Assembly (NCBI GenBank): GCA_028293125.1
Contig: JAQGPJ010000049.1
Coordinates: 62,001 to 126,000 of the forward strand
Source of the DNA: Verrucomicrobiales bacterium
Lineage (GTDB): Bacteria > Verrucomicrobiota > Verrucomicrobiia > Verrucomicrobiales > V1-33
Reading direction: 5' to 3'
DNA: 64,000 nt
Part shown: piece by piece, positions 35,211 through 43,154 of the stretch
Layout of the letters: each line of letters begins with the position of its first letter
Position numbering within the stretch: position 1 is the stretch's first letter
Program-made: the position numbers and the translations under genes
Notes under the pieces: model-generated
Databases searched by the model: none
What the model saw: the letters and a program-made list of their open reading frames with translations, nothing else
Told to the model about the DNA's origin: nothing

Positions 35211-35387
35211 GCTGGTCATGTCAAAGGCTTCAAGGTGCTGCCCAAAAGGTGGATCGTTGAAAGGACCTTCGGCTGGTTCATCCAGTCCCGCCGCTTGGTC
35301 CGGGATTACGAGGCCGGAATCAGCCATTCCGAGTCCATGATCCACATCTCCAGGATCAAAAGCATGCTCGCCAGAATCGCCCGTTAG
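35211..35387 (+). mobile_element. IS5-family transposase remnant (C-terminal end only)
   Basis: Reading from 35211, the frame gives about 58 residues containing [18 protein letters not shown], then RRLVRDYE and an [14 protein letters not shown] ending at TAG 35385-35387. This is the conserved end of IS5/IS427-type transposases around the catalytic glutamate (VERTFGW). No N-terminal part or DDE aspartates can be found upstream. TTATTTTTAAGACAGCCTCT follows at once (about 35388-35407) and looks like one terminal inverted repeat; its partner is not visible upstream. Confidence 0.8.
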
Positions 35388-36035
35388 TTATTTTTAAGAC
35401 AGCCTCTTATGAATTCCGCTCTGAGGGGACGGTCCAAGCGTTGGTTTGCCCTCATCCGCCGCAGGCAGCGCGCCGGATTCCCGTGTCCTCACCCGTGCTC
35501 CGGCATTCCAAGCCGGGCCTTCAGTCCTCCCATTTGCCGCCCTGACATTTCCTGGGCGTTGCTCCGGGCTCCCCTTTGGAACCGGGGAGGCCGGCGCATC
35601 CGCGGACTGGAGCCGCTCCTCAATCACCCGGGCTTCAATAGTAAATCATATCAATTATAACATTATTTTGAATTCATGTTTCCAACTTTCCGGCGTCTCC
35701 GCGAGGGCCGTTCCAGCAGCGGGTAAAGCCTTGATTTTCCTTGAAATTACTTGCCTTGAATGAGGTTTCGTGCTTTATTGGGAATCACTGATGGAGCAGG
35801 GGTGAAGTATAGCTGAATTCTGTTATTATGAAATGCTTTTTCCGTCCGCGGCGTCTCTCCTCTCCGTCCGCCGCCGGAAAGCGGATCCGCAACGGCGCGC
35901 GGTGGCCTGACACCGGGCAGTGCCGCCATGCGGGATCCGGTCCGGTTGACGACCAGTGGCGGTCTGTTCAGGACGCGGTCCGGCGGGGCTTAAAATCGAC
36001 CGGATACCGGCTGAATCCGGAGGCTCCATCCTCCC

Positions 36036-36202
36036 GTGACGCCGGCTTCAGACCAACCGGTGACACCCATGTCACTGGTGACACGAAATTCTTTTTCCAA
36101 AATTCCGCCGAGGGGGTGGCGCCCATGCCACCGGAGGGGTGGCGCGGAGGTCACCGGGGGATGACGCCGGCGTCACCGGGAGAGTGGCGCCCATGCCACC
36201 GG
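36036..36202. repeat. Array of about six palindromic 20-nt units, 22-23 bp apart
   Basis: Units begin near 36036, 36059, 36115, 36138, 36160 and 36183. Four are directly in tandem with spacing 23, 22 and 23. Each has inverted arms around a short centre: GGTGAC/GTCACT, GGTGGC/GCCACC, GGTGGC/GTCACC, and the perfect palindrome TGACGCCGGCGTCA. When the left arm changes (GGC to GAC) the right arm usually changes to match (GCC to GTC). The junctions also pair (GCCACC...GGTGGC). The period is not a multiple of three, so this is not coding sequence. Confidence 0.85.
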
Positions 36203-36647
36203 AGCCCTCCATCATGCATCCACCCTCAGGGGGATGGCCTGCCGGGCGCCTTTCCGGAAAACCGCAAAAAGCGGGAGCCGGCATCTCCCTGTCCGACCTC
36301 GCTCCCGCCGCCATCTTCGGCAACCGGAGGGGAATCCACCTCGACAGGCTGGATGTCCTCCCCGCCTCTCACAGACCCGAGGGGGCGGTCCGGAGCCGGC
36401 CTTTCAGGCCTCAACCACAGGCGGCTCAGCCTGTTTCATGGATTCCAAATCCGGATCCCGGCCACGCGGAAATGGACCCCAATGCTTACTGAAAATGGTC
36501 TTACGCCTTGTGGCTCCAAAAATTCCATCCCCCGCGATGCCCTCAAAACGCGTTCAGGCCATTCTCCAAAATGACAGGTTGTTAACGGCGGCGGACATGA
36601 AGCGCCGGATTCGGGCGTTTGGGTGGGAGGTTTCCCGTTAAAAAATC

Positions 36648-39600
36648 ATGCTGACTTTCCGCTATTCCGCTCCGGCACTTTTGGCTTCCTGCGTGGCCTT
36701 GGCCGCGGCGCTCGCTGTTTCCTCACCGCCGGAGAAGGAAAAGGAAGGCTTGTTCCGCGCCGGGGCAGCGGAGGTGGATATTTCCCCGCCGGCGTATCCC
36801 GTGAGGGTGAACGGCATGTTCACGGAGCGCTCGGCGGACAAAACCATCGACCCGCTGCGTGCCAAGGCTCTGGTGTTGGACAACGGGGAAACGCGCCTGG
36901 CGTTCTGCGTGGTGGACACCTGCATGATGCCGCGGGAGGTGATTGACAAGGCGAAGGCCGCAGCCAGCCAGGCGACGGGCATTCCGGTGGAGCGCATGCT
37001 GGTTTCCGCCACCCACACGCACTCCGCGCCGTCCGCCATGGGGTGTCTGGGCTCGCGGGCGGACGAGGCCTACACCGCCTTCCTGCCGGGGAAAATCGCG
37101 GAGGCCATCGCGGGCGCGGCGAAAAACCTCCAGCCCGCCCAGGTGGGCTGGACGGCGGTGGATGATTGGGAACACACCTTCAACCGGCGCTGGGTGCGCC
37201 GTCCGGACCGGATGCTGAACGACCCCTTCGGCGTGGCCAATGTGCGGGCCAACATGCACCCCGGTTTTCTGAGCCCGGATGCCGTCGCGCCTTCGGGGCC
37301 GGTGGATCCCCAGCTGTCGCTGCTGGCGGTGCGGTCGGTGGACGGAAAGCCGCTGGGGCTGCTGGCGAACTACTCCATGCATTATTACGGTTCGGACCTG
37401 CTGTCGTCCGACTACTTCGGAAAGTTTGCCGGCCATGTGGCCGCGGAGCTGGGCGCGCCGGCGGGGTTTGTGGGCATCATGTCGCAGGGGACCAGCGGCG
37501 ATCTGGCCTGCATGGATTACGGCGCGCCGAAAAAACCGGATATCGGTTATCACGCGTATGCCAAGGAGATCGCCCGGCATGCGGTGGAGGCTTGGAAAAG
37601 AATCGAATGGAAGAATACGGCTCCTCTGAAAGCAGCCCAGTGCCTGCTGCCGCTGAACTACCGCCAGGCTGACGAAAAGCGCTTGGCCCGCGCCCGTGAG
37701 GTGAATGCCGCCGTCAATGGCCGCCTTCCGCAGACCATGGAGGAGATTTATTCCCAGGAAGCCGTCATCCTGCATGAAAAACAGCGGACGGAGTTGGTCA
37801 TGCAGGCGGTCCGGGTGGGGGATCTGGGCATCGCCGCCCTGCCTAACGAGGTTTATGCTCTGACCGGCCTGAAGCTGAAGGGCCTCAGCCCCTTTGCCGC
37901 CACCATGAACATTGAGCTGGCGAACGGTTCGGAGGGCTACATTCCCCCGCCGGAGCAGCATCATTTGGGTGGATACACCACCTGGGCGGCACGAACGGCG
38001 GGGCTGGAGACGGAGGCGGAGCCGCGCATTCTGGAGACGGCGCTCAGCCTGCTGGAGGAGGTGGCCGGCAAGCCCCGGCGGGTTGTGCAACTGACCGGCG
38101 GTGTGTATGCGGACACCGTGGCGGCCTCCAAACCAGCGGCTTGGTGGCGTCTGGAGGAGATGGAGGGCACCACCGCGGTGGACGCCACAGGGCAGAATGG
38201 AAGCGGGGTGTTCGAGGACGGCACAGCGCGCTTCCTGCCGGGGGCGGACGGACGCCGTGGGTTCCTCCCGCCCCAGCCACCCGCCGCCAATGCCTTCAGC
38301 GGTCCGGCCATCAACCGCGCCGCTCATTTCGCGGGCGGACGGCTGAAAACCAAGCTGCCGGCCGGCGAGTCCTGGAGCGCGGAGCTGTGGGTGTGGAACG
38401 GTCTGCCCGCCGACGCGCGGGCGGTGACGGGTTACGTGTTCTCACGCGGGCCGGAGGGCGATGCCGCGGCGCACGGCGAGCATCTGGGCATCGGCGGCAC
38501 CTTCAGGGGAGCGGACGGCGCCGGTCCTGACATTTCCGGAAAGCTGATGCTCTTCAACGGCAACGAACGGGACCAGGTGCTTGCCGGGCGCACTCCTCTG
38601 GCCTTTCAGGCATGGCACCATGTGGTGCTGGTGCGGGAGGGAGCAAAGGTGCGCGTGCATCTGGACGGAAACGCGGAGCCGGAGCTGGCCGGGGACTTTG
38701 CGCACACCCTTCCCGCCGGCTGCGATGACGTGTTCTTCGGCGGGCGGAGCGACGGTCTGTTCGGGCTGGAGGGGAAGCTGGATGAGATCGCATTTTACAA
38801 CCGCGCCTTGGCTCCCACGGAGATCGCGGCGCACTACGCGGCTTCGGGTCTGACGCCGCCGGTGAAAGCGGTGGCCGCCGCTGGCGGAACGCCCGCGCCC
38901 CTGACGCCCCCGCTTTCGCCGCAGGAGTCCATGGGCAAGATCCACGTCCGCGCCGGTTACGGTTTTGAACTTGTGGCCTCCGAACCGCTGCTGGCGGATC
39001 CGGTGGCGATTGACTGGGACCTGGCGGGACGCCTGTGGGTGGTGGAGATGGCGGACTATCCGCTGGGCATGGATGGAAAAGGCAGCCCCGGAGGGCGCGT
39101 GAGGATGCTGGAGGACACGGACGGCGACGGTCGTTATGACAAGTCCACGCTTTTCGCCGAAGGGCTCAATTTTCCCACCGGTCTCCTGACCTGGCGGGAC
39201 GGAGTGATCGTCACCGCCGCCCCGGATATCCTGTTTCTCCGCGACACGGACGGCGATGGCCGTGCGGATTCGAAGGAAGTGCTGATCAGCGGCCTGCTGG
39301 AGGGGAACCAGCAACTGCGGGCGAACGGCCTGCGCTGGGGGTTGGACAACTGGGTGTACTGCGCCGCCGGGGGACATCACGGCGAATACGGCACCGGCAC
39401 CAAATTCCGCTCCCGCCGCAGCGGCACGGAGGTCACCGTGGGCAGCCGCGATTTCCGTTTCCGTCCTGACACGGGCGAACTGGAGCCGCAGAGCGGTCCT
39501 TCACAGTTCGGGCGCAACCGCGACGACTGGGGACACTGGTTCGGCACCCAGAACTCCCGCCCGCTGTGGCACTATGTGCTGGAGGACCAATATCTGCGCC

Positions 39601-42600
39601 GCAACCCGCTGGTGGCCGCGCCGGATCCCAAGCATCAGGTGGTCACGCCGCTGAATCCCCCGGTGTGGCCCGCCAGCCGTCAGGAGAAGCGCTTCCACTC
39701 CTTCAATGAGGCCGGGCATTTCACCTCCGCCTGCGGCGGCATGATCTATCGGGACACCCTTCTTTTCCCGGAGGGCGGCATCCACGCCTTCACCTGCGAG
39801 CCCTTCCACAATGTGGTGCAGCACAACATTCTGACGGAGGACGGGGTCACGTTCAGTTCCCGTCAGGATGGCGATGCCGACCGTCTGGATTTCTTCGCCA
39901 GCGAGGACCGCTGGTGCCGTCCCGTGATGACCCGCACCGGCCCGGACGGTGCCCTGTGGGTGGTGGACATGTACCGCTACATGATCGAGCACCCAGACTG
40001 GCTGCCGGCGCAGGGGAAGGCCGAGCTGCTGCCGCACTACCGACTGGGCGAGGACAAGGGACGCCTCTACCGCGTGTTTCCCGTCGGTCAGGAGCGGCGG
40101 GCGTGGGTGAATCTGGAGAAAGCCGCCCCGTCCGAACTGGTCGCCGCCTTGGACTCACCGAATGAATGGCAGCGGGACAAGGCGCACATGGCGCTGCTGT
40201 GGCGGCTGCCGGCCCTCCCCGGGGCGGAGCGCGATGCGGCGGTCAGCCTGATGAAGGAACAGGTGACCGGCAGTGCCAATCCGCTGGTGAAGGTGCATTT
40301 GATGGGTGTCCTCAGCAGGCTGGAATCCCTGACAGGAGAGGCTCTGGCCGCTCTGGTGAAGGACACCCATCCCCGGGTCCGGGAGGTGGCGCTGCGTTTT
40401 GCCGAGGGCCGCACGGATGCGGGATTGCTGGCCAGGGTGGTTTCCCTGACAGAGGATCCCGATGCCAAGGTGCGGCTGCAGCTGGCGCTTTCGCTGGGAA
40501 CGTGGGGGGCCGGGACAAAGGAGGGACTGGATGAAACCGGTGAGGCCTTGGGCCGGCTGGCGGTGCGGGACGCGGGGGAACCCTCCATCCGGGGCGCGGT
40601 TCTGAGTTCGGCCACCGGGCATGTGAAGGCGCTGGCGGCGGCGGTGGTAAAGGCGGGGGAGCCGGCTTATTCGGCGTTTTTGGAGCCACTGGTCACCATG
40701 TCCCTCGCGGGTGGGGAGCGCGGGGCGATGGCCTCCTTGCTGACCCCGGTGCTGACGGCCTCCGGCACAAACCCTTCCTTCACGCCGGCCCAGATGGAGA
40801 CTTGGTGCCGCTTTCAGGACTTGGTGGCGCGTGAGCCCGGCCGCCTTGCCAAAACCATTGATGGGAATGACGGGCTGTCCGCCCTCCTCCAACAAACCGC
40901 GGCCCTCACGCAGGCCGCCGTGGCCGCCGCCCGTGACTCCGCCGTGGCGGCCCGCGCCCGCATCGCTGCCGCCGGTGTGCTGCTGCGCGCTCCGGATCAC
41001 CGCGCCTCCGCTTTGAAAATGCTGGCGGAATGGCTGGGGCCGCAGATGCCCGGCGATCTGCAAACCGCCGCCATCGGCGCATTGGAGGATTCGGAGGACG
41101 ATTCCGTGCCCGGCACCCTGCTGGCCGCCTGGCCGTCCCTGCCGCCCTCCGCCCGCGATGCCGCGGCGGATGCCCTGATGAGCCGCGAGCCGTGGGCCTT
41201 CGCCCTGGCGGAAAGCCTGAGCCAGGGAAACAACCTGGCCTTGGACGCCGTGCGCCGGGCGCGCCTGCTGCAGCATCCGTCAAAGCGCGTGAGCGAACTT
41301 GCGGGCCGTGTCATCAGCTCCGGAGCCGCCGGCAGCCGAGCCAAAGTGGTGCAGGACTTCAAGGCAGCGCTGCAGCTGGCCGGCGACGCCGTGCGTGGCA
41401 GGGAGGTTTTTTCCCGCACCTGCATCGGCTGTCACAAGGTGGATGGCCTGGGCAATGACATCGGGCCCAATCTGCTGTCCGTGGCCGGGCATCCGCCGGA
41501 AAAGCTGCTGACGAATATCCTCGATCCCAACGCTGATGTGCAGCCGGGGTTCCACGCCTACCAGTGCCGGCTCCAGGACGGCACGGAACTCTATGGCCTG
41601 CTGGCCTCCGAGACCGGTGGCAGCATGACTTTCAAGCTGGTGGACGGGAGCACCCGCGCCGTGCCCCGCCGGGAAATCGCGTCACTGTCCGGAGCCACCC
41701 TCTCCCTGATGCCGGATGGGCTGGAGGCCGCCATGACGCATCAGGACATGGCCGATCTCATTCAGTTCCTGCGCGATGGCTCATCGGTGGGCTCAGCCGG
41801 GGGCAATACTCCGTCCGGCACCGGGACCGGTGCCGTTCCCAGTGCGGCGGGGCAGGATGGCGATGGCGAAGTCCGCGTGGGGGCCGCCGCCGTGAATCTG
41901 AAGAGCGACGACGACATGCCGCTGGCCGGCTACCTGCTGTCCCGTTACACCAAGGAACAGGAGGGACAGCTGCGCGCCACCGCCGTGGTGGTGGACAAGC
42001 CGGGATCCGCCCGGGTGGCCATGGTGGCCTGTGACGTGCTGTGGGTCACGCGCGCCATCGTGGACGCCGCTCTGGAGGAGATCGAGCGCACCACCGGGAT
42101 TCCGTCGTCAAACATTCTCGTGAACGCCACGCACACCCACCACGCCCCCGGCACCGCGCCCGCGCACGGGTTTGGCTGGTCGGAGAAGTTCGCGGAGGAG
42201 GTGCGGCGCGGCATTGTCCTGTCCGTGCAGGAGGCCAATGACCGCCTGGCCCCGGCACGGCTGCATTTCCATCTGGGCCACGAGCAGACGGTGGGGGCCA
42301 ACAGCCGCCTGCTGCTGAAAGATGGCTCCATTTCTTGGCTGAATCCGGCGGTGGAGGCGGCGCTGCGCGTCGAGCCCACGGGCCCGTTCGACCCGCAACT
42401 GCCGGTGCTGGATTTCCGGTCTCCCGGCGATGCCACGCTGGCCCTGCTGTTCAACCACTCCACCCACACCATCGGCACCCGGTCGGGCCGGGATGTGCGC
42501 TCGCCGAGTTTCTACGGACTCGCCGCACAGGACTTGGAGGCGGAGCTGGGCGGCGGAGTGGTCAGCTTTGTGGAGGGCGCGTCCGGCTCCACCCACAACA

Positions 42601-43154
42601 TCCGCGGCGTGTCCGTGCCGGTGGCCATCGAGCGCATAAAGGAGGCGGTGCGCGAAACCCGCGCCCAGGCGGAATACCGTCCGGTCACCCGCGTGGCCGC
42701 CCTGAAGCGGCCTTTCAAATACCGCGTGCGCACCCCGGATGAGGCGGCGGAGGTGGCGGACATCACCCGCTACTCCACCAACCACGCCAAGGGAAGTGAA
42801 CCGCTGATCCAGGAGATCTTCGCTACCGCCCGCCGCGCCATTATCCCCACGGCGGGCGTGGAGCGCACCACCTGGCTGCAGGTGGTGCTCATCGGCGATG
42901 TGGCGTTTGTGGGGGTGCCGGCGGAATATTTCACCGCTCTGGGGCTGGATATCAAAAAGCGCTCGCCGTTCCCGAACACCTACATCGCGGAGTTGGCGAA
43001 CGACTGGATCGGCTACCTGCCGGACCGCTTCGGCCATGCCCGCGGCGGCTACCAGACCTGGACCGGATTCCACAGCTACTGCGAGCCCGGCACCGGTGAG
43101 CGCATGGCAGACGAGGCCGTGAGAATGCTGGAGGAGCTGGCCGCTGGAAAGTAA
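36648..43154 (+). CDS. Giant exported fusion: ceramidase-like, LamG, PVC dehydrogenase/cytochrome c, ceramidase-like
   Basis: A 2168-residue exported protein. Order: signal peptide (1-26); neutral/alkaline ceramidase-like domain (about 35-470) with SATHTHSAP metal site; LamG-like beta-sandwich (about 484-740); PVC-type glucose/sorbosone-dehydrogenase-like propeller (about 760-1140) with DTDGDGR repeats; HEAT-like helical repeats (about 1150-1545); one haem c site CIGCH at 1592-1596 in the PVC cytochrome module (to about 1705); a Gly/Thr-rich linker; and a second ceramidase-like domain (about 1740-2165) with NATHTHHAP. Both ceramidase-like domains keep the leading histidines. Propeller-HEAT-haem proteins are typical of the PVC group; flanking by two amidase domains is unusual. 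Probably acts outside the inner membrane; the substrate is unknown. Confidence 0.92.
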   Translation: MLTFRYSAPALLASCVALAAALAVSSPPEKEKEGLFRAGAAEVDISPPAYPVRVNGMFTERSADKTIDPLRAKALVLDNGETRLAFCVVDTCMMPREVIDKAKAAASQATGIPVERMLVSATHTHSAPSAMGCLGSRADEAYTAFLPGKIAEAIAGAAKNLQPAQVGWTAVDDWEHTFNRRWVRRPDRMLNDPFGVANVRANMHPGFLSPDAVAPSGPVDPQLSLLAVRSVDGKPLGLLANYSMHYYGSDLLSSDYFGKFAGHVAAELGAPAGFVGIMSQGTSGDLACMDYGAPKKPDIGYHAYAKEIARHAVEAWKRIEWKNTAPLKAAQCLLPLNYRQADEKRLARAREVNAAVNGRLPQTMEEIYSQEAVILHEKQRTELVMQAVRVGDLGIAALPNEVYALTGLKLKGLSPFAATMNIELANGSEGYIPPPEQHHLGGYTTWAARTAGLETEAEPRILETALSLLEEVAGKPRRVVQLTGGVYADTVAASKPAAWWRLEEMEGTTAVDATGQNGSGVFEDGTARFLPGADGRRGFLPPQPPAANAFSGPAINRAAHFAGGRLKTKLPAGESWSAELWVWNGLPADARAVTGYVFSRGPEGDAAAHGEHLGIGGTFRGADGAGPDISGKLMLFNGNERDQVLAGRTPLAFQAWHHVVLVREGAKVRVHLDGNAEPELAGDFAHTLPAGCDDVFFGGRSDGLFGLEGKLDEIAFYNRALAPTEIAAHYAASGLTPPVKAVAAAGGTPAPLTPPLSPQESMGKIHVRAGYGFELVASEPLLADPVAIDWDLAGRLWVVEMADYPLGMDGKGSPGGRVRMLEDTDGDGRYDKSTLFAEGLNFPTGLLTWRDGVIVTAAPDILFLRDTDGDGRADSKEVLISGLLEGNQQLRANGLRWGLDNWVYCAAGGHHGEYGTGTKFRSRRSGTEVTVGSRDFRFRPDTGELEPQSGPSQFGRNRDDWGHWFGTQNSRPLWHYVLEDQYLRRNPLVAAPDPKHQVVTPLNPPVWPASRQEKRFHSFNEAGHFTSACGGMIYRDTLLFPEGGIHAFTCEPFHNVVQHNILTEDGVTFSSRQDGDADRLDFFASEDRWCRPVMTRTGPDGALWVVDMYRYMIEHPDWLPAQGKAELLPHYRLGEDKGRLYRVFPVGQERRAWVNLEKAAPSELVAALDSPNEWQRDKAHMALLWRLPALPGAERDAAVSLMKEQVTGSANPLVKVHLMGVLSRLESLTGEALAALVKDTHPRVREVALRFAEGRTDAGLLARVVSLTEDPDAKVRLQLALSLGTWGAGTKEGLDETGEALGRLAVRDAGEPSIRGAVLSSATGHVKALAAAVVKAGEPAYSAFLEPLVTMSLAGGERGAMASLLTPVLTASGTNPSFTPAQMETWCRFQDLVAREPGRLAKTIDGNDGLSALLQQTAALTQAAVAAARDSAVAARARIAAAGVLLRAPDHRASALKMLAEWLGPQMPGDLQTAAIGALEDSEDDSVPGTLLAAWPSLPPSARDAAADALMSREPWAFALAESLSQGNNLALDAVRRARLLQHPSKRVSELAGRVISSGAAGSRAKVVQDFKAALQLAGDAVRGREVFSRTCIGCHKVDGLGNDIGPNLLSVAGHPPEKLLTNILDPNADVQPGFHAYQCRLQDGTELYGLLASETGGSMTFKLVDGSTRAVPRREIASLSGATLSLMPDGLEAAMTHQDMADLIQFLRDGSSVGSAGGNTPSGTGTGAVPSAAGQDGDGEVRVGAAAVNLKSDDDMPLAGYLLSRYTKEQEGQLRATAVVVDKPGSARVAMVACDVLWVTRAIVDAALEEIERTTGIPSSNILVNATHTHHAPGTAPAHGFGWSEKFAEEVRRGIVLSVQEANDRLAPARLHFHLGHEQTVGANSRLLLKDGSISWLNPAVEAALRVEPTGPFDPQLPVLDFRSPGDATLALLFNHSTHTIGTRSGRDVRSPSFYGLAAQDLEAELGGGVVSFVEGASGSTHNIRGVSVPVAIERIKEAVRETRAQAEYRPVTRVAALKRPFKYRVRTPDEAAEVADITRYSTNHAKGSEPLIQEIFATARRAIIPTAGVERTTWLQVVLIGDVAFVGVPAEYFTALGLDIKKRSPFPNTYIAELANDWIGYLPDRFGHARGGYQTWTGFHSYCEPGTGERMADEAVRMLEELAAGK

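Follow-up and report, generated by a model that had tools for sequence, protein, structure and literature searches.

We found that a palindromic array in a Verrucomicrobiales genome is very probably a set of iterons for a dimeric winged-helix initiator, that arose within the gene encoding that initiator, an arrangement known from lambda O/ori. This interpretation rests on the homology of the array to other loci, its nesting in a gene, the phasing and frame usage of its units, the conservation of their arms, and the sharing of the sites with phage initiator genes. The array lies in the 64,000-nucleotide stretch of DNA that we analyzed (the window) and belongs to a dispersed family of 0.6-1.2 kb, whose best-preserved stretch it forms; it is not a free-standing structural element. 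Because its DNA-binding helix-turn-helix has been largely deleted, the window copy is classed as a relic rather than a working member, and the sites predicted from its sequence would at most be passive ones, bound by an initiator made elsewhere. On this interpretation, an unexplained palindromic array becomes a recognizable relic of a phage-type origin.

The array consists of five 18-bp palindromes of the GGTGRC-N6-GYCACC type at 36059-36200, to which no strand is assigned, with starts 56, 23, 22, and 23 bp apart. Iteron A (GGTGACACCCATGTCACT, 36059..36076), whose arms are 97% conserved over the 11 copies of the family, is followed immediately 3' by an extra half-site, GGTGAC (36077..36082), and then by a spacer (36083..36110) that is 61% A+T within DNA of 65% GC and is a possible unwinding stretch. 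Iterons B (GGTGGCGCCCATGCCACC, 36115..36132), C (GGTGGCGCGGAGGTCACC, 36138..36155), D (GATGACGCCGGCGTCACC, 36160..36177), and E (AGTGGCGCCCATGCCACC, 36183..36200) complete the array. The original prediction had counted about six units; the five palindromes and the 23/22/23-bp spacing of B-E hold, and to these are to be added a degenerate palindromic unit, TGACGCCGGCTTCA at 36037..36050, and the half-site.

The array is real by two measures. Tandem Repeats Finder reports a period of 23 at 36113-36204 (score 86), and arm-6/loop-6 palindromes with at most one mismatch number seven versus 1.3 in dinucleotide shuffles (p 0.001), a count above all 1000 shuffles; only one palindrome has exact arms (p 0.07). 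A CRISPR array, with its identical repeats and unique spacers of equal length, had already been rejected in the original prediction, and rightly so: the units are diverged, they recur with a period of 22-23 bp, and only 4-5 bp lie between most of them.

Ten further loci in the same 6.48-Mb genome were retrieved with a 260-bp query, the strongest at 77-84% identity, and a longer query recovered the same 11 loci, which are about 72-88% identical. No copy was retrieved from 26 relatives, four of them of the same genus (260-bp query), or from 12 genomes of the bacterial family; because the genomes from the same genus are only 68-89% complete, the lack of hits in them does not prove absence. By homology to the ten other loci, the window copy (35436..36500, forward strand) is a decayed dispersed element, left over from an O-like initiator gene and the leader of that gene. 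Across the genome we counted 18 instances of the word GGTGACN6GTCACC versus one of a reversed control, and 16 of the 18 lie within the array family; the relatives' genomes hold zero to three occurrences each. A lone GGTGACATAAATGTCACC palindrome outside the family stands upstream of a GntR-like gene (contig C21, L069:1006-1023).

The copies are scattered between host genes, with no phage module seen, and examples of neighboring frames read, by translation only, as uvrA, isoleucyl-tRNA synthetase, and alcohol dehydrogenase. Dispersed palindromes between genes would also suit a mobile repeat of the REP/BIME or MITE kind that has no connection with a gene. However, such repeats are short stand-alone units with fixed ends, whereas the copies here are pieces of a gene, their ends are ragged rather than fixed, and in some the initiator frame is complete or largely preserved; we regard a mobile repeat of this kind as highly improbable. 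Because of the ragged ends, we also rejected a transposon with fixed ends.

The ancestral gene can be read in the best-kept copy (L023, C103:20106-20873), where a 256-aa open frame starts before the array and runs through it. The encoded protein matches the Pfam winged-helix domain HTH_36 at 28.2 bits (curated cut-off 25) and phrog_8540, "replication initiation O-like" (E 2e-12). Other copies keep parts of this protein at 41-55% identity, several of them, including the window copy, without the helix-turn-helix part. In the window, a 248-aa open frame (35828..36574, forward strand) extends from the leader through the array as a remnant with most of the helix-turn-helix deleted. Part of it (35987..36163, forward strand), comprising the wing, the linker, and an array-encoded peptide (RLNPEAPSS...GDTHVTGDTKFFFQNSAEGVAPMPPEGWRGGHRG), matches residues 75-134 of the best-kept copy (tblastn, E 7e-9). 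Lying 5' of the ancestral coding start, a conserved leader block (35679..35895, forward strand; on average 66-71% identical between copies, 55 pairs) contains a promoter-like TTGCCT...TTTATT, and we infer a promoter role for it.

Two earlier descriptions, that the stretch is gene-free and that coding repeats are excluded by the period, are not confirmed. In the ancestral gene the array belongs to the coding sequence, and here it lies inside a decayed initiator gene; its units are read in different frames. Translated, the palindromes give GDTHVTGD (A), GVTPMSPE (B), WRGGHRG (C), GDDTGVT (D), and GVAPMPP (E). The frame is open through units A-C in the copies, and L019 has a deletion across unit B. 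In the best-kept copy the array is disturbed, and the direct repeats of that copy do not reach significance (p 0.36 and p 0.16). We found no close relatives of the protein from this copy in phages, plasmids, viral contigs, or genomes of the bacterial family, and a contig scan across genomes gave only a chance-like match in Mycolicibacterium.

Compared with an O-like initiator gene, the window copy has several phased sites in the coding frame (five palindromes in a 22-23 bp phase) and a site word common to recognized phage initiator genes. The HTH_36 domain expected upstream in the gene is largely deleted in the window and present in the C103 copy. Inspection of the predicted frames in the flanks of the 11 copies revealed no DnaB, helicase, or loader gene beside any of them. 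This absence, the disturbed array of the best-kept copy, and the failure to find a phage or plasmid with close similarity to its protein weigh against the iteron interpretation. In most of about eleven copies, the binding sites have outlasted the initiator gene.

The same sites are found in phage initiator genes. In IMG/VR, 90 contigs contain two GGTGACN6GTCACC words no more than 30 bp apart, and pairs of the reversed-word control, CAGTGGN6CCACTG, occur in no viral contig of that collection. The paired sites lie inside one open frame in 86 of the 90 contigs, where they use frame 0 (136 sites) or frame 2 (94 sites) and never the TGA-stop frame, and their translation gives GDTxVT or VTPxSP. Their spacing is mainly 22-24, 33-36, and 45-47 bp, and these approximate multiples of 11.5 bp place the sites on the same face of the helix. 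Among 82 of the site-bearing viral proteins, many of which are mutually related, 69 carry HTH_36, 70 match phrog_270 (replication initiation), and 77 have each of the recognition-helix arginines R61 and R65 (L112 numbering). Both arginines are also present in the best-kept local copy (SERHCKR versus SVRHCQR in L112) and in only 4 of 19 HTH_36 proteins from other loci, most of which have other repeat words. We interpret these sites as iterons of an origin nested in the initiator gene.

The viral initiators are 17-79% identical to the first sequence of alignment A2, and GGTGAC-N6-GTCACC is common to very divergent ones, such as L118, L148, and L165. The combination of an R-x3-R recognition helix with GGTGAC sites is suggestive of a recognition rule for phage initiators, one that may be testable across a large class of them.

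Is it the sequence of the arms or their pairing that has been kept? The original prediction held that arm changes are usually compensated and that the folded form, as RNA or cruciform DNA, matters. The units are palindromic and their stems can form, but unit B alone has a compensated arm difference in the window (GGTGGC/GCCACC). In a test whose power is limited by the number of copies, 11, pairing between the two arms of one copy is no better than pairing between arms drawn from separate copies (p 0.28-1.0 by permutation). In a few copies an indel shifts the alignment of unit D slightly, and this creates no covariation. In the frame of unit C, GGTGAC would yield a TGA stop, and TGG stands there in 11 of 11 copies. 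The opposite arm stays GTCACC in 10 of 11, and the pair is left uncompensated because TGA would be a stop.

An Rfam scan of the window gave no hit, and together with the lack of covariation this leaves RNA or cruciform folding unsupported. Across the 11 copies, the arms are 88% conserved versus 77% in the spacers (p 0.0025) with no codon-position signal, and the variation in cores and spacers is of the sort that binding sites would show. We therefore consider a structured RNA or cruciform-forming element, with its folded form under selection, to be very unlikely. Judging from the aligned copies, sequence rather than pairing is kept in the arms, as expected for protein-binding sites.

How would such an origin have worked? 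In the intact ancestor, an HTH_36 protein would be made from the array-bearing gene, and its dimers would bind the 18-bp palindromes, which are phased at 22-24 bp, or about two helical turns. The initiator-iteron complex would then open the neighboring DNA and recruit DnaB or a DnaB loader, starting replication as for lambda O. Binding, DNA opening, and recruitment are steps that we infer for this ancestor; in the present bacterium, the gene survives as 11 scattered, decayed copies between host genes.

Why do binding sites outlast their gene in a host chromosome? One answer is that the dispersed copies are not mere relics and are kept as decoy or regulatory binding sites, that is, as origin decoys resembling lactococcal phage-encoded resistance. 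In favor of this idea, the array is the best conserved part of the family (88% pairwise identity for units B-C versus 43-71% outside the array, 11 copies), its arms exceed its spacers in conservation without a codon signal, and the same site word is used by many phages. Moreover, blocking of phages by ectopic origins is on record (PMC4488673, PMC8965321). Precedents for decoys are ectopic lambda origins (PMC4488673) and the phage-encoded resistance PER (PMC8965321, PMC6356513), in which additional ori copies confer phage resistance (PMC8965321). However, no phage of this host is known with these iterons, the arms may be conserved from the time when the genes still worked, and units D and E are eroding. 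Retention as decoy or regulatory sites is therefore unlikely in our view. By analogy, one might go further and propose that the scattered arrays are natural chromosomal decoys that soak up the initiators of GGTGAC-N6-GTCACC phages and so provide innate resistance, as laboratory lambda-ori and lactococcal PER decoys do, a proposal that we hold to be quite unlikely. Under it, the arrays would have outlived their source initiator gene because of the resistance they conferred. We favor the view that the copies are relics of a nested initiator origin.

The iterons of lambda are located inside gene O. They are 19-bp imperfect inverted repeats bound by O dimers (PMC7466680), and the family described here likewise combines a winged-helix initiator with several 18-19 bp inverted-repeat iterons in its own coding sequence. 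Unlike lambda O/ori, it has another site word, many decayed chromosomal copies, and no adjacent P or helicase gene, and its window copy lacks the helix-turn-helix. In the lactococcal phages TP901-1 and Tuc2009, each replisome organizer binds repeats that lie within the organizer gene and act as ori (PMC8965321). Our array is like those of TP901-1 ORF13 and Tuc2009 Rep2009 in that the repeats, which there are bound by the initiator, lie inside the initiator's own gene. It differs from TP901-1, Tuc2009, and PER in its unrelated host and repeat sequence, and any resistance from it is hypothetical. With the IMG/VR HTH_36 (PF13730) O-like initiators it shares the palindrome word, the place in the gene, the GDTxVT and VTPxSP peptides, and the R-x3-R recognition helix; those genes are open and in viral contigs, whereas here they are decayed chromosomal copies.

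The array had been thought to match no described family, yet iterons inside phage O-like initiator genes fit it (PMC7466680, PMC8965321), and nested initiator origins are an already known kind. What is new is the existence of multi-copy chromosomal relics that keep the sites and lose the initiator, and of an iteron word common to divergent initiators with an R-x3-R recognition helix. As far as we found in the open-access literature, a set of 11 eroded chromosomal copies with the sites best conserved is apparently undescribed. Other cases may be spotted as HTH_36 genes whose middle part carries paired GGTGAC-N6-GTCACC words that translate to GDTxVT or VTPxSP.

Repeat arrays accompany other HTH_36 genes in the taxonomic order. 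With loci assigned by hand as full-length or partial from profile coordinates, an array of period 21-30 bp is present in 17 of 21 full-length HTH_36 loci versus 1 of 10 partial, GntR-like loci (Fisher p 3e-4). The repeats lie roughly 230-520 bp downstream of the domain start. For the majority of the loci that we checked, the next gene downstream encodes DnaB (five loci), a DnaC/IstB-like ATPase (three), or a Toprim protein (one). Of four more HTH_36 genes in the present genome (L064, L065, L066, and L067), three have a clear internal array of another sequence with a period of 23-24, and the fourth has a weaker one. Three of the four genes lie immediately 5' of DnaB genes, and these are probably prophage or plasmid replication modules.

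Downstream of the array, a 2168-aa open frame at 36648-43154 is, from its translation, an apparent fusion of neutral-ceramidase-like, LamG-like, dehydrogenase-like, and cytochrome-c-like segments. We rejected the array as a conserved leader of this large gene because the best match of the frame in a same-genus genome (G002) has a different gene directly upstream and no array. On the other side, the neighboring IS remnant reported in the original prediction is confirmed at 35224-35406, with copies at 83-87% identity on contigs C38, C60, and C88. The C88 copy contains an open frame that, from its translation, looks like an IS5-family transposase.
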